Shown: positions 1,215 to 43,164 of the stretch, piece after piece
Numbering within the stretch: the stretch's first letter is position 1
How the letters are laid out: each line of letters opens with the position of its first letter
IMG/VR virus record: IMGVR_UViG_3300028829_003339
Coordinates: 1-43,231 of that record
Length of the DNA stretch: 43,231 nucleotides
Source of the DNA: a virus
Direction: 5' to 3' (one strand)
Notes under the pieces: model-generated
Seen by the model: only the letters and a program-made list of their open reading frames with translations
Told to the model about the DNA's origin: nothing
The model's database searches: none
Translations under genes and position numbers: made by a program

Positions 1215-1243
1215 ATTATAGCAAGAGTTCTTGGTATTGTCAA
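1215..1243 (-). promoter_or_regulatory. Perfect-consensus sigma70 promoter with near-palindromic spacer
   Basis: TTGACA (1238-1243), 17 bases, TATAAT (1215-1220) on the minus strand. The spacer next to the -10 reads GCAAGAGTTCTTGG on the plus strand, 13/14 of the palindrome seen in the promoter at 41152-41180. Drives the 1185-472 operon. Confidence 0.85.
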
Positions 1244-1311: not shown

Positions 1312-2271
1312 TTATAGTCCGTTTGGTACAATTATATAGTGAATTGTAAGAACTACGCCCACACTTGCACCTAAACCAATCATCATTTTTAGGAAATCTT
1401 TAGTAACAAGTGGAAATACTGTTTTGAACTTTTCTTTTCCTGTCATTGTAGCCATAGCAAGTTCACGTCCACATAGTAGTCCTACAAATACCCATGTTGT
1501 TGACATTGGAATATCATTTAGTTCTTTGAAGAAGAACAAAATTAACCAATATACTGCATCAATAATTGTGGCACTTCTTACGTATCTAGTGTTGTGTTTC
1601 TCAATAACAATTTTTTGAATTTTACCTCCGCCTTCACGGAACATATATCCAAGCCCTGCTACAAATACAACACTAATCAATACCATTAGATCCCATGGAA
1701 TCTCCCTTGGTAAGAATACGGCAATGTTTGCCATATCATGTGATAACCAAGTAAACCATAAGAAGCCTGTTGTTACCCATTGGCCAATACGCCACCACTT
1801 CTTATGTGATTCTTTAACTGGTGATGCTTCGTCTAGTAGTTTAGTAACACCTATCCAGATTACATATGCTGCCACGGCCGCAACTGCATAACCCATCATG
1901 CTTTTCATAAGCATTTTTTCTAATACAAATGTGCTTGCAAATGCACTTAGTACTAAGAAACTTGTACTAACTGGTACACCTATTCTTGTAAGTATTAGTA
2001 GTAGTCCTGGTGCCATAGCATGGTACCATTGTATTTCTTGGAATGGAATTCTGTTAAGTCGTCCGTAACTAATGTCACCGCCGTTTACTGTCCAACCATA
2101 CCACAAAGTATAAAGGAGAACTGCCGAAGCCGCTCCCCACATAATTTTCCAATTAACTTTTTCGTTGTTTGATGCGATCCATGTTCCAAGTGTTTGAACT
2201 GAATCATTTGCTATTACTGAATAGCAGGCAAATAGAAATCCTATTGCCATCCATAAAGTGAGTGCGTCCAT
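1312..2271 (-). CDS. PiT-family inorganic phosphate permease homologue
   Basis: A 319-aa polytopic membrane protein with about eight hydrophobic segments and the duplicated signature of PiT/PHO4 phosphate:cation symporters (established family). Repeat 1 has ANDSVQTLGT (21-30) and GVPVSTS (98-104); repeat 2 has SHDMANIAVF (177-186) and IPMSTTWVFVG (254-264), matching the GANDVAN and G-P-V-S-T-T-H boxes of the family. It is shorter than typical bacterial PiT proteins (about 400-500 aa), with a compact central loop. AAGGAG precedes the ATG. It has its own late promoter and a terminator, so it is a single-gene late unit. Probable role: inorganic phosphate uptake by the infected cell; the ion specificity is inferred, since sulfate permeases share the fold. 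Confidence 0.8.
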   Translation of the reverse strand: MDALTLWMAIGFLFACYSVIANDSVQTLGTWIASNNEKVNWKIMWGAASAVLLYTLWYGWTVNGGDISYGRLNRIPFQEIQWYHAMAPGLLLILTRIGVPVSTSFLVLSAFASTFVLEKMLMKSMMGYAVAAVAAYVIWIGVTKLLDEASPVKESHKKWWRIGQWVTTGFLWFTWLSHDMANIAVFLPREIPWDLMVLISVVFVAGLGYMFREGGGKIQKIVIEKHNTRYVRSATIIDAVYWLILFFFKELNDIPMSTTWVFVGLLCGRELAMATMTGKEKFKTVFPLVTKDFLKMMIGLGASVGVVLTIHYIIVPNGL

Positions 2272-2340
2272 AATATTTCTCCTTATTGCTTGACAGCTTT
2301 ACCCTGTCGCTCACAATGTTAGTTTAATTACTAACAAAAT

Positions 2341-2348
2341 TATTTATC
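2341..2348 (-). promoter_or_regulatory. Late promoter (GATAAATA)
   Basis: GATAAATA on the minus strand overlaps the stop codon of the preceding gene and lies about 70 bases before the permease start. The leader contains a 6-bp inverted repeat (2318-2335) and a GACAG/CTGTC pair. Confidence 0.6.
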
Positions 2349-16754: not shown

Positions 16755-17975
16755 TTAAGTATTTATCGATTTATGCAATTCGATAAACGTTTTTTTCCAA
16801 TCTGTACCTCGTATTTCGTCTAACTTCTCTAAAAAAATTATACAATTATATGGATTACTATCGTAGTCTAATGTACTGTTTAAATAACTTATTAAGTGAG
16901 ATAGTTTATCTTTATGTATTGAATTACTATACATATTTATAATATCTAATTTTGCTTGTTTTGGTAAATGTTTTACATCTAAATGACTAGGTGTAGATAA
17001 TATTCTTATATTAATATGATACTGTTTAAAATGATCTAATAAGTTTAATACTGTAAATGCATTAAGCATTTGCCACGTAATACTTATTTCTATTTGTGTA
17101 TTAGGTAATAATTCGTTAATACGTTCTATATTTTCATTTAGTTTATACCATTTACTAGGAAAACGTATATAATCATTTTGCTCACCAAAATCATCTATAC
17201 TACATCTAAGCATTAGTTTTTTAAAGTGCTTCCATTGATTAATTGCACGTTGATGTACATTTGTAATATTAGTATCGTACTCTAGCACTACATTTTTACT
17301 TATATTATTGTCAATTAGCTTTTGCAAAAATTTGTAATGAGGTTCTACTAACATAGGTTCACCGCCTACTAAATAAACGTGTTGTAGTTGTTCCTTGTGT
17401 ATATCTAACTGTTCCCAAAAGTGTTCACTTTCCCACCAATCATAATCCGATGCACGATCTTTCCTATTTTGTTTGGATACGTCCGACATGTTGATTTTTA
17501 TACCGCTGTCGTAAAAATGATCAGTGGAGTGAACTTTTGCCCAGTCTTTATACCACATACTACTACTTCCAGGTCCGCACATTACACACTTTAAGTTGCA
17601 TAAATTACCAAACCTTAAATCCCAATATATAGGCATTTGTGTTGTGCTACCATCTGGTTTTGTTACCTGTACTGCTTTATCGTAATCAAATTCTTTATAA
17701 ATCTTATTTGTAAATGTACGTCTACTGTGACCGCCATTATCTTCTTTAATCCAACATGTGCTACACTCTGTTGGCTTTTCGCCTGCTAAAAATTGTTTAC
17801 GAATTTTACGTGTAAATTCACTGTTGTGTATTTCTTCTACACTGTGTTCTTTAAAATTATGTCCAGTTTCACCGCCTGTGCTGTTACTCATTAAACAACA
17901 AACTCTACTAGATCCATTTGTTTTAGTAGCGGCATGTATCCAAGGAATTGAACAAAAACTATTCTTCTGCATCAT
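16755..17975 (-). CDS. Radical SAM protein with N-terminal SPASM/twitch-like cluster
   Basis: A 406-aa enzyme with the radical SAM motif LCNLKCVMC (C126, C130, C133) and a following glycine-rich GGEP strand (YLVGGEPML near 210). The first 80 residues hold FCSIPW (C8), RVCCLMS (C26, C27) and ECSTC (C71, C74) with the IHNSEFTRKIRKQFLAGEKP helix between them, the layout of a SPASM/twitch auxiliary cluster, normally found after the core. Such enzymes modify peptides or carbohydrates using a 5'-deoxyadenosyl radical. Its start overlaps the upstream radical SAM gene by 17 bases, so they form a two-gene unit from the promoter at 19157-19186. Substrate unknown. Confidence 0.85.
   Translation of the reverse strand: MMQKNSFCSIPWIHAATKTNGSSRVCCLMSNSTGGETGHNFKEHSVEEIHNSEFTRKIRKQFLAGEKPTECSTCWIKEDNGGHSRRTFTNKIYKEFDYDKAVQVTKPDGSTTQMPIYWDLRFGNLCNLKCVMCGPGSSSMWYKDWAKVHSTDHFYDSGIKINMSDVSKQNRKDRASDYDWWESEHFWEQLDIHKEQLQHVYLVGGEPMLVEPHYKFLQKLIDNNISKNVVLEYDTNITNVHQRAINQWKHFKKLMLRCSIDDFGEQNDYIRFPSKWYKLNENIERINELLPNTQIEISITWQMLNAFTVLNLLDHFKQYHINIRILSTPSHLDVKHLPKQAKLDIINMYSNSIHKDKLSHLISYLNSTLDYDSNPYNCIIFLEKLDEIRGTDWKKTFIELHKSINT
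16760..16767 (-). promoter_or_regulatory. Late promoter inside the end of the radical SAM gene
   Basis: GATAAATACTT on the minus strand, 23 bases before the start of the tagged 15790-16737 gene, whose leader carries AAAGG. Confidence 0.65.
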
Positions 17976-19137
17976 TATTAATCCATTCTGCTAACTCAGG
18001 ATCAAAACTATCTAGTGTAACTACACCATGTGTATCGTAATAGTTTACAAAATGTTTTACTTTTTGTTTGCGTTTCATCTCATTGTTAAACGGCTTACGC
18101 ATTTCGTTTATAACATGATCAACTCCCTCTAGCTTATCTTTGTGTTGTTCAAAAAATTCTAAACTATCTGCTTTAAGTCTATCTGGAATGTTTTCCATTA
18201 GTACTTCTGTCTTATTAACAACTGGACGAATCTGTACTTTTGCATCTGGATAGTTTTCCCATAAGTGTGTAATAAGTTTAGGTATGTGTCTTACACTTAA
18301 ACTATTAGCAGTAATGTCCCATACTTTTAATTTAAAATGATTATAGTATTGATCCATTACTTGTAGTTTTTCTTCCCATACTGTATCTTGTCTGGTCCAT
18401 TCATCAGCCGCCCCCCAGCCATCTACACTAAATCTTAAGAATACATTTTCTACTGTTTTTAGTTGTTTTAAATCTTTTTCTCTTAATAGTCTTGTGCCGT
18501 TTGTATTAATAACAAAATTAGCACCCGGAGCCAAACTACCTAGTCTTTCTACTGTAGTAGGAAAGTTTTTAAGATAAAAAGGTTCGCCTCCTGCTAGGTA
18601 TACGTGCTTTAAATTTTTATCTACACTTGAAATAATATTATCCCATGCTACAGGATCATCACTCCAATCGTAATTGCTTTTGTGATACTTTTCTGCTTCT
18701 TTTTCTAAACGTCCTTCTTTCCAATTAAAATGTTTTGCCATTGATTTATGTTGCTGTAATATTTTATTACTGTTACCAGCAAAACACATAACACATGACA
18801 AGTTACATACATTACCTAACCTTAAATCAAGTGCGTGTATTTTCTCATCTTGAAATGGGACTCCGTTATTAATCATACCTAATGCTTTTTGTCTAAAACT
18901 ACGAACTCCATCTCTTTCAGGATCGTAGCATTTAAAACAACCATTAGGTTCGCCACCTGAGGCAATCTCTGCTCTAACAGAATGCATTTCTGGGCTATTC
19001 CAAATTTCACTTAACTTGTAGTCTTTGATATGATACTGTGAAAGTTTATTCTTGAGATTTTTACAGCACAATGCTACATATCCGTCATTATCAACGAATG
19101 TAAAGTTGTTTGTGTATATACAATATTTGTCTGTCAT
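17959..19137 (-). CDS. Radical SAM protein with N-terminal SPASM/twitch-like cluster
   Basis: A 392-aa enzyme. The radical SAM motif is VCNLSCVMC (C111, C115, C118), followed by YLAGGEPFYL (GGEP strand near 183) and INTNGT near 215. Ahead of it are C6, VALCCKN (C24, C25) and GCFKC (C67, C70), joined by an LSEIWNSPEMHSVRAEIASG helix: a SPASM/twitch-like auxiliary site located N-terminally. It shares this architecture with the 16755 and 41929 proteins but differs in sequence, so the three are paralogues or separate acquisitions. AGGAT precedes the ATG; an early sigma70 promoter lies just upstream. Confidence 0.85.
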   Translation of the reverse strand: MTDKYCIYTNNFTFVDNDGYVALCCKNLKNKLSQYHIKDYKLSEIWNSPEMHSVRAEIASGGEPNGCFKCYDPERDGVRSFRQKALGMINNGVPFQDEKIHALDLRLGNVCNLSCVMCFAGNSNKILQQHKSMAKHFNWKEGRLEKEAEKYHKSNYDWSDDPVAWDNIISSVDKNLKHVYLAGGEPFYLKNFPTTVERLGSLAPGANFVINTNGTRLLREKDLKQLKTVENVFLRFSVDGWGAADEWTRQDTVWEEKLQVMDQYYNHFKLKVWDITANSLSVRHIPKLITHLWENYPDAKVQIRPVVNKTEVLMENIPDRLKADSLEFFEQHKDKLEGVDHVINEMRKPFNNEMKRKQKVKHFVNYYDTHGVVTLDSFDPELAEWINNDAEE

Positions 19138-39800: not shown

Positions 39801-40535
39801 ATGGCTAAACGAGCTCGAAAAACCAAAAAACAACAATATCAACAAGAACATTCACAGGATAAGATAGTCCAACTTAACGCACACAGAAAAAGACACGTAC
39901 AAATTGTACCACGAAATCTTGCACAAGAAGATTATGTGGAACTTCTTGACGATGAAAAACGTAACATTGTGTTTGCAATGGGGCCTGCTGGTACAGGTAA
40001 AACATTGCTAGGCGTGTTAGCGGCTATTGACGCATACAATTCAAACTTATGTAGTAAAATTGTAATTACACGACCTGCTGTCAGTGTTGATGAACAACAT
40101 GGATTTCTACCAGGAACACTAGTAGAAAAAATGGCACCATGGACAAGACCTATATTTGACGTAATGGAAGAATATTGGTCACCAAGCACAATCGAACATA
40201 TGATTAATGAGAACATTATCGAGATTGCACCACTGGCATATATGCGTGGTAGAACTTTTAAGAATTCTTGGATTATAGCAGACGAAATGCAAAATGCGAC
40301 ACCATCTCAAATGAAGATGTTATTAACACGCATTGGCGAGAATTCTAAAATTATTGTAACAGGAGACTTAGCACAACACGACCGTGGATTCGAAGACAAC
40401 GGTCTTAAAAATTTCGTAAAACTACTAGAACAAAGAGGTAGTGATATAATTGGAGTTGTCAGCTTTACCAAAGGTGATGTTGAACGACATGTCGCTGTTA
40501 CTGAAGTTCTAACTATTTACGGAGACGAAGAATAA
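39801..40535 (+). CDS. phoH: PhoH-like P-loop ATPase
   Basis: The only plus-strand gene. The 244-aa PhoH domain has Walker A GPAGTGKT (61-68), TRPAVSVDEQHGFLPG (90-105) and Walker B SWIIADEMQN (156-165), with TGDLAQHDRG near 193-202. PhoH is a member of the phosphate-starvation-induced family, commonly carried by marine phages, with an ATPase or RNA-helicase-related activity that is not resolved. It is diverged from the minus-strand operon at 39650 and ends one base from the convergent HAD gene. AGGAG lies just before ATG. The coexistence with a PiT-like permease is notable but a phosphate link is inference. Confidence 0.92.
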   Translation: MAKRARKTKKQQYQQEHSQDKIVQLNAHRKRHVQIVPRNLAQEDYVELLDDEKRNIVFAMGPAGTGKTLLGVLAAIDAYNSNLCSKIVITRPAVSVDEQHGFLPGTLVEKMAPWTRPIFDVMEEYWSPSTIEHMINENIIEIAPLAYMRGRTFKNSWIIADEMQNATPSQMKMLLTRIGENSKIIVTGDLAQHDRGFEDNGLKNFVKLLEQRGSDIIGVVSFTKGDVERHVAVTEVLTIYGDEE

Positions 40536-41903: not shown

Positions 41904-41932
41904 ATTATAGCGTAAATTATGCTATTTGTCAA
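41904..41932 (-). promoter_or_regulatory. Perfect-consensus sigma70 promoter overlapping a stop codon
   Basis: TTGACA (41927-41932), 17 bases, TATAAT (41904-41909). The TGA stop of the radical SAM gene (41929-41931) lies inside the -35 hexamer. Confidence 0.85.
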
Positions 41933-43164
41933 GTAAAGTAATGGTCATAAGTGCTATAAACCCAGTCACCTAATTGCTTATTGTAATCATATAAGTACAT
42001 ATTTCTATACTTGTCTGTTTCTATTGTTCTTCTTACAAACTTTCTAACCGCATCACGATCTGCTTGTGGTTTTGATAAATTTAAATAAGCATCGTCAATT
42101 GTTCTTTGTAATCTTTGCGAACTTATCTGATCTACAACTTTATAGTTTTTTAATTTTTTTAATTCTTCTTGTCTCATTTCTAACGGTAATACATCTGTTC
42201 TAAATACTCTTGGATTTAGTAATTGTCTTGAATTATTACTAGCACCGCATTCTATAGCTAAATTATTAAGTTGCAGTATAGTATCAAAATTATATGCTTG
42301 TATACTAGCATTTAATGAAAAATTAAACCAACTACTATTTACTTGTGCAAAATACTTTAAATCAGCTAATACTTTTTCCATTTCTGCCCAAGTAAATACT
42401 CCTGCACTACGCATATATTCAAACATAGTACTAGGTGCATCTAAACTTAAATCAAGTTCAAAACTTTTTAATGTTTCAAAACTTTGTAATCTGTCTAAAT
42501 CTAACTTTGATCCATTTGTTGTAACAACTAAATCTGTCTCAAATGATTTATCATGTTGATCTAATATGCCTACAAGATCATAAACATTATTATCTATAAA
42601 AGGTTCACCGCCTGTTATCCAAATACTTGTTACACTATCTAACTTACTTGGATCATTTCGCAAAGTATCATTTATAAAATTTCTATTTTTAATTAAGTTA
42701 TTATCGAGTTTAGATTTAGGAACTATATTTAATGATGCTAGACGCTTAAATTCTGGTATAAGACCGTTACTGTATAAAGGACTACACATTCTACATTTAA
42801 AATTACAGATATTACTGTAATTAATAAACATATGATTTACTGGATTTCCTGTTACTTGTGGATTATTATATCCTTCTTGACTTTTAAAATCATGTGGGTT
42901 ACGCAATAGCCATTTTTGTCTTTGACTAATATTTCCATGTTGTTCTTTTTTATAACAGGTTTCACACCCTGTTTTATCCCACTTGCCGTCAAGCATATCT
43001 TGACGTAGTTTTTTCATTTGTTCGCTATCATAACTTTCACCCATTGGAGTGTCACTCATCATACAACGAGTAAATGCACCTGTGGGGTGAAAGCTAATAG
43101 CATTAAATGGAATTGGACACCAAGTATCGCTATGTTTATTAACTGGCTTAGTGTTTTTATCCAT
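41929..43164 (-). CDS. Radical SAM protein with N-terminal SPASM/twitch-like cluster
   Basis: A 411-aa enzyme. Radical SAM motif ICNFKCRMC (C120, C124, C127), then ITGGEPF (near 183-189) and VTTNGS near 213. Ahead of it are WCPIPF (C16), RCMMS (C34) and GCETC (C67, C70), separated by the LRQDMLDGKWDK helix: the same N-terminal auxiliary-cluster plan as the 16755 and 17959 proteins, though this copy has one Cys fewer. It lies two bases after the end of a peptidoglycan-binding protein gene. Its C-terminal 60 residues (DRDAVRKFVRRTIETDKYRN) are unlike the other two. Substrate unknown. Confidence 0.85.
   Translation of the reverse strand: MDKNTKPVNKHSDTWCPIPFNAISFHPTGAFTRCMMSDTPMGESYDSEQMKKLRQDMLDGKWDKTGCETCYKKEQHGNISQRQKWLLRNPHDFKSQEGYNNPQVTGNPVNHMFINYSNICNFKCRMCSPLYSNGLIPEFKRLASLNIVPKSKLDNNLIKNRNFINDTLRNDPSKLDSVTSIWITGGEPFIDNNVYDLVGILDQHDKSFETDLVVTTNGSKLDLDRLQSFETLKSFELDLSLDAPSTMFEYMRSAGVFTWAEMEKVLADLKYFAQVNSSWFNFSLNASIQAYNFDTILQLNNLAIECGASNNSRQLLNPRVFRTDVLPLEMRQEELKKLKNYKVVDQISSQRLQRTIDDAYLNLSKPQADRDAVRKFVRRTIETDKYRNMYLYDYNKQLGDWVYSTYDHYFT

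Follow-up and report, generated by a model that had tools for sequence, protein, structure and literature searches.

The permease gene and its relatives

The DNA analysed here, which we refer to as the window, is the whole 43,231-nucleotide stretch of IMG/VR record IMGVR_UViG_3300028829_003339, a 43-kb virus fragment of 34.5% GC that is probably from a marine phage. On its minus strand, at 1312–2271, an open reading frame of 319 aa encodes a predicted permease of the PiT fold, with two inverted halves that each carry an ND/HD and a PxST motif. These are VIANDSVQTLGT and GVPVSTS in the N-terminal half, and WLSHDMANIA and DIPMSTTW in the C-terminal half. The first-pass annotation had pointed out the duplicated boxes without giving a strand, and they are indeed conserved: 40 viral relatives, 55–90% identical, show no change at N22, D23, Q26 and P100-V-S-T103, or at H178, D179, A181, N182 and P255-M-S-T-T259.

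The sole Pfam match is PHO4 (PF01384) at an E-value of 0.059, the 12.8 bits lying below the curated cut-off of 33.7, which is also missed by the bacterial relatives of the permease. Comparison with the PDB by phmmer returns only TmPiT (6L85; E 0.0064), with the second-half motifs aligned, and a fold search with the AlphaFold model (pLDDT 81.8) has 6L85 as its sole match at E ≤ 0.001 (E 6.8e-4, probability 1.00, TM 0.65); a BFVD fold search gave no match. Because PHO4 is the only family found in Pfam, and TmPiT the only match in the PDB by sequence and by predicted fold, we take the protein to be a divergent PiT-fold permease. The profile comparison with PHO4 proposed in the first-pass annotation therefore gives the expected family at a score under its cut-off, for which reason we use the label "PiT-like" and do not list the protein as a certified PHO4 member. 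A better match to an unrelated family, named there as the contrary outcome, is seen neither in Pfam nor among PDB sequences or confident fold matches.

Relatives of the permease are encoded in 529 IMG/VR candidate stretches, and none was found in cultured phages. Bacterial relatives, approximately 60% identical, occur in SAR11, other Alphaproteobacteria and Flavobacteriales. The reduced size to which attention had been drawn is not peculiar to the phage protein, as the SAR11 and Flavobacteriales proteins are likewise about 310–320 aa, and the size therefore appears to derive from the bacterial subfamily. In a phylogenetic tree the window permease falls in a virus-only clade (support 95/92) while some other viral copies cluster with bacterial ones, and it is thus probable, as judged from the tree, that viruses captured the permease more than once. 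Two contigs (L202 and L204) of the 'Rhodobacteraceae' MAG Water_Bin34 encode proteins closely related to the viral permease (88% and 73%), and L204 also has the leader element described below; both probably come from phages and were binned with a bacterial genome.

Elsewhere in the window, the DNA polymerase is T4-type and is nearest to those of jumbo phages such as Atu_ph07 (44–48%). Three minus-strand radical-SAM-type reading frames (16755–17975, 17959–19137 and 41929–43164) all match PHROG 14086 within this one phage fragment. Downstream of the permease, a perfect sigma-70 consensus promoter (TTGACA-17-TATAAT; 1215–1243, minus strand), with TG ahead of the second hexamer, is directed at a 96-aa reading frame at 895–1185.

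Promoter-like sequences and a covarying RNA leader

Upstream of the permease, a T4-late-like box GATAAATA at 2341–2348 (minus strand) agrees with the T4 sequence TATAAATA at 7 of 8 positions and overlaps the stop codon of an 84-aa reading frame. For 116 of 138 distinct leaders, a TAAATA or TAAGTA core lies in the 150 nt upstream, as compared with 14% of random 150-mers drawn from the same loci, genic DNA included. A late promoter of T4-like type, as claimed in the first-pass annotation, is plausible. Zero-mismatch Pho-box-like repeats precede viral permeases in 11% of cases and other viral ORFs in 0.6% (approximately 18-fold), and in the window no such direct repeats were found with up to one mismatch.

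Between the box and the gene there are two potential hairpins, and the second of these, which the first-pass annotation overlooked, is a conserved structured RNA leader. The upstream one, hairpin A (TGTTAG-TAATTAAA-CTAACA; 2317–2336, minus strand), lies close to where the late transcript is expected to begin and differs in sequence and loop among phages. In seven loci (L084, L104, L128, L166, L182, L195 and L201) its loop is of the GUAAA type, like that of the leader element, and it is followed by a T run, so as to resemble an intrinsic terminator near the start of the late transcript.

The leader element itself, UGUGAGC-GACAG-GGUAAAG-CUGUC-AAGCA, occupies 29 nt at 2287–2315 (minus strand), and alignment of upstream DNA places it adjacent to, and on the upstream side of, the permease Shine-Dalgarno sequence AAGGAG (2279–2284, minus strand). 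Its stem consists of five covarying base pairs, formed in the window by 2308–2304 with 2296–2292, while the loop and flanks are constant, giving the consensus GUGAGN-(5 bp)-NGUAAAN-(5 bp)-AARCA. Across the five core pairs in 24 distinct sequences, and with counts that ignore kinship, 36 cells carry changes in both partners and none is disrupted, two-sided changes being seen at every pair; all five pairs are standard in 85 of 85 distinct copies. The pattern has 245 matches in real sequence and none in simulated sequence of the same size. At the base of the hairpin UGY and RCA may also pair, the inner of these pairs being standard in 85 of 85 copies. An inner GC/GC extension of the stem was rejected, since pair 9–29 is broken in 24 of 85 copies, and coding sequence was rejected as an explanation of the element since its distance to the ATG is not confined to multiples of three and the stem changes are compensatory.

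We read the element as RNA and not as a DNA operator because the stem varies in sequence between copies, whereas its loop and flanks do not. Folding energies of the whole leader are ordinary, so that the case rests on covariation together with placement, the element lying 28–35 nt before the permease start when measured from the loop. An Rfam search at gathering score matched no family, and a literature search, with subscription journals mostly outside its coverage, turned up no description of such a leader, which is probably novel. Within the permease gene, several codons among positions 21–33 are unusually conserved at synonymous sites in the leader-bearing viral genes, and this may reflect either more RNA structure or recent common origin.

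Distribution of the leader and a probable phosphate-uptake module

The leader stands before 131 of the 212 distinct viral permease starts, and before none of 75 cellular ones. The other 81 viral starts are without it. In the close relatives L002 and L003, 96% identical in protein, the entire promoter-leader stretch is absent, and it follows that the leader is dispensable in some phages. Whole viral records, ranging up to 268 kb, have a single copy, or a second one as well where a PstS or barrel gene is present. In exact-pattern scans of IMG/VR, in which the pattern had to be followed by an ATGA, ATGY or ATGGB start, with ATGGA starts sampled from among the matches listed in a scan that set no start codon, leaders with a complete stem occur only before genes for the permease, PstS-like proteins (PF12849) and outer-membrane beta-barrels (PF24653 and a group with weak similarity to DUF2490), and, in a single type of locus, before a 55-aa Cys-rich reading frame upstream of the permease. 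The other matches have 0–2 stem pairs and look like chance occurrences. No leader was found near the PhoH-like gene of the window (39801–40535, plus strand), which is the sole sizeable recognised plus-strand gene found there. Roughly 630 sampled genomes (Pelagibacterales, Alphaproteobacteria and the order of a Flavobacteriales relative) likewise gave no leader under strict filters and without a positive-control genome.

Among cultured phages, relatives of the PstS-like protein are found in Pelagibacter phage Mosig, where the leader of the gene differs from the conserved element, in two Acinetobacter 'phage' records and in one fecal fragment. Of the two Acinetobacter records, the one that was inspected, CAKLQF020000007.1 (L434), named Acinetobacter phage MD-2021a, carries ipdC, aroP, sphX, pstC and pstA and resembles bacterial chromosomal DNA.

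A PstS (PF12849) or outer-membrane barrel gene lies next to the permease in 39 of 333 viral loci, on the same strand every time, and a Porin_O_P gene is directly beside one Flavobacteriales permease relative. Together with the shared leader and the Pho-box-like repeats, these neighbours give the phosphate specificity assigned in the first-pass annotation good, if indirect, support, and the PiT type stands on the matches described above. Sulfate permeases such as CysP also use the PiT fold, the second-half motif of the window protein is SHDMAN and not GANDVAN, and the Pfam match is weak, all of which would suit a carrier of another oxyanion such as sulfate; against the PstS, barrel, Porin_O_P and Pho-box associations we regard this as improbable. 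On comparative sequence grounds, then, we group these genes into a phage module for phosphate uptake that has a conserved RNA leader of its own.

Models for leader function

We propose, as the likely single explanation of these observations, a phage-captured permease that belongs to a phosphate module and is served by a late promoter and by a leader acting as an RNA operator or aptamer. The PiT-fold protein would reside in the inner membrane and most likely import phosphate by ion symport during infection, with a PstS-like binding protein and outer-membrane beta-barrels as its partners in related phages. Transcription would probably be late, from the T4-like promoter; many relatives may also use a promoter of the PhoB type belonging to the host. 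As the hairpin adjoins the ribosome-binding site, translational control is suggested, and the constancy of loop and flanks around a stem that drifts suggests that a factor or ligand recognises it. The leader is thus most likely a translational operator or small aptamer that tunes the output of uptake proteins, and we infer that any binding partner could be a factor encoded by phage or host, or else a metabolite.

The same hairpin might instead be a generic stabiliser of mRNA or a ribosome standby structure, copied with its promoter as a cassette among neighbouring module genes. Genes that share the leader are usually adjacent, the leaders of neighbours can resemble each other, and a good proportion of viral permeases manage without one, as described above. 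However, a generic stabiliser would be expected before other late genes, yet there are only one or two copies per whole record, and stabilisation by itself would not call for a GUAAA loop and for GAG and AA-R-C flanks that are invariant next to a drifting stem; we consider this reading doubtful. A similarly tentative standing is given to a two-state translational switch, in which the GUGAG flank pairs with CUCAC in codons 4–5 of the permease (CTCAC, 2258–2262, minus strand), enclosing the Shine-Dalgarno sequence and start and competing with UGY/RCA pairing at the hairpin base. This long-range pairing appears in minimum-energy folds, and CTCAC is present in the first 24 nt of 101 of 122 leader-bearing genes as compared with 15 of 79 leaderless viral and 0 of 74 cellular genes. 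CTC makes up 81% of codons at Leu4, as opposed to 4.7% of those for Leu in the body of the gene, Leu4 is the most conserved of 23 Leu columns, and the uniformly standard inner UGY/RCA pair also fits. Nevertheless, the PstS and barrel genes carry GUGAG without CUCAC, GCGAG and GUAAG variants occur without a compensating change, and other early codons are well conserved too in what are related sequences.

In its covariation and its position by the Shine-Dalgarno sequence, the element has the form of a conserved structured leader adjoining an expression platform, as is required of a riboswitch. That it is specifically a small riboswitch-like aptamer sensing phosphate or a metabolite that reflects phosphate status, and so setting translation of a phage phosphate-uptake regulon, seems to us rather unlikely, and the broader reading as an operator or small aptamer remains the one we prefer.

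Control of phage phosphate uptake has so far been explained by host PhoB acting at promoters. A covarying leader that occurs only before phage phosphate-uptake genes, and that was not found in the host-type genomes searched, points to a second layer, acting on RNA and owned by the phages, and its comparative pattern suggests that viruses carrying it control phosphate uptake at the RNA level. The leader also provides a sequence handle by which uncharacterised genes of the phosphate module, the barrels among them, may be found in uncultured viruses, and it is short and easily studied in reporter tests.

Comparison with known systems places these features as follows. The window permease has in common with TmPiT (6L85) and the PiT PHO4 family (PF01384) the inverted two-half architecture, the ND/HD and PxST motifs and the fold, but differs in its length of 319 aa, its sub-threshold Pfam score, the SHDMAN of its second half and its membership of a separate subfamily common to SAR11 and Flavobacteriales. 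Genes of the PiT type on phages are known from soil, where pit genes have been reported (PMC10987575); the family described here is probably set apart from these by its relationship to the SAR11 type and by its leader. A literature search of the same coverage as above found no paper on marine phage pit genes. In a study on cyanophages (PMC10976474), pstS is under host PhoB control, which links phage phosphate-uptake genes to host phosphate control; Pho-box-like repeats are found upstream of the permease relatives too. The phages described here differ in having a permease as well, a late box of T4-like type and the conserved leader element, whereas in the available text of that study no leader RNA was found. 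Freshwater-2 RNA (RF02980) is also a structured leader near a Shine-Dalgarno sequence. It is present in two of the phage loci (L027 and L031, 6452–6525, plus strand), about 500 nt downstream of the permease, behind a TAAATA box and ahead of another gene, so that these phages have more than one such leader. The window leader is nevertheless a different motif, scoring 16.1 bits against the freshwater-2 cut-off of 49.9 (E = 2).
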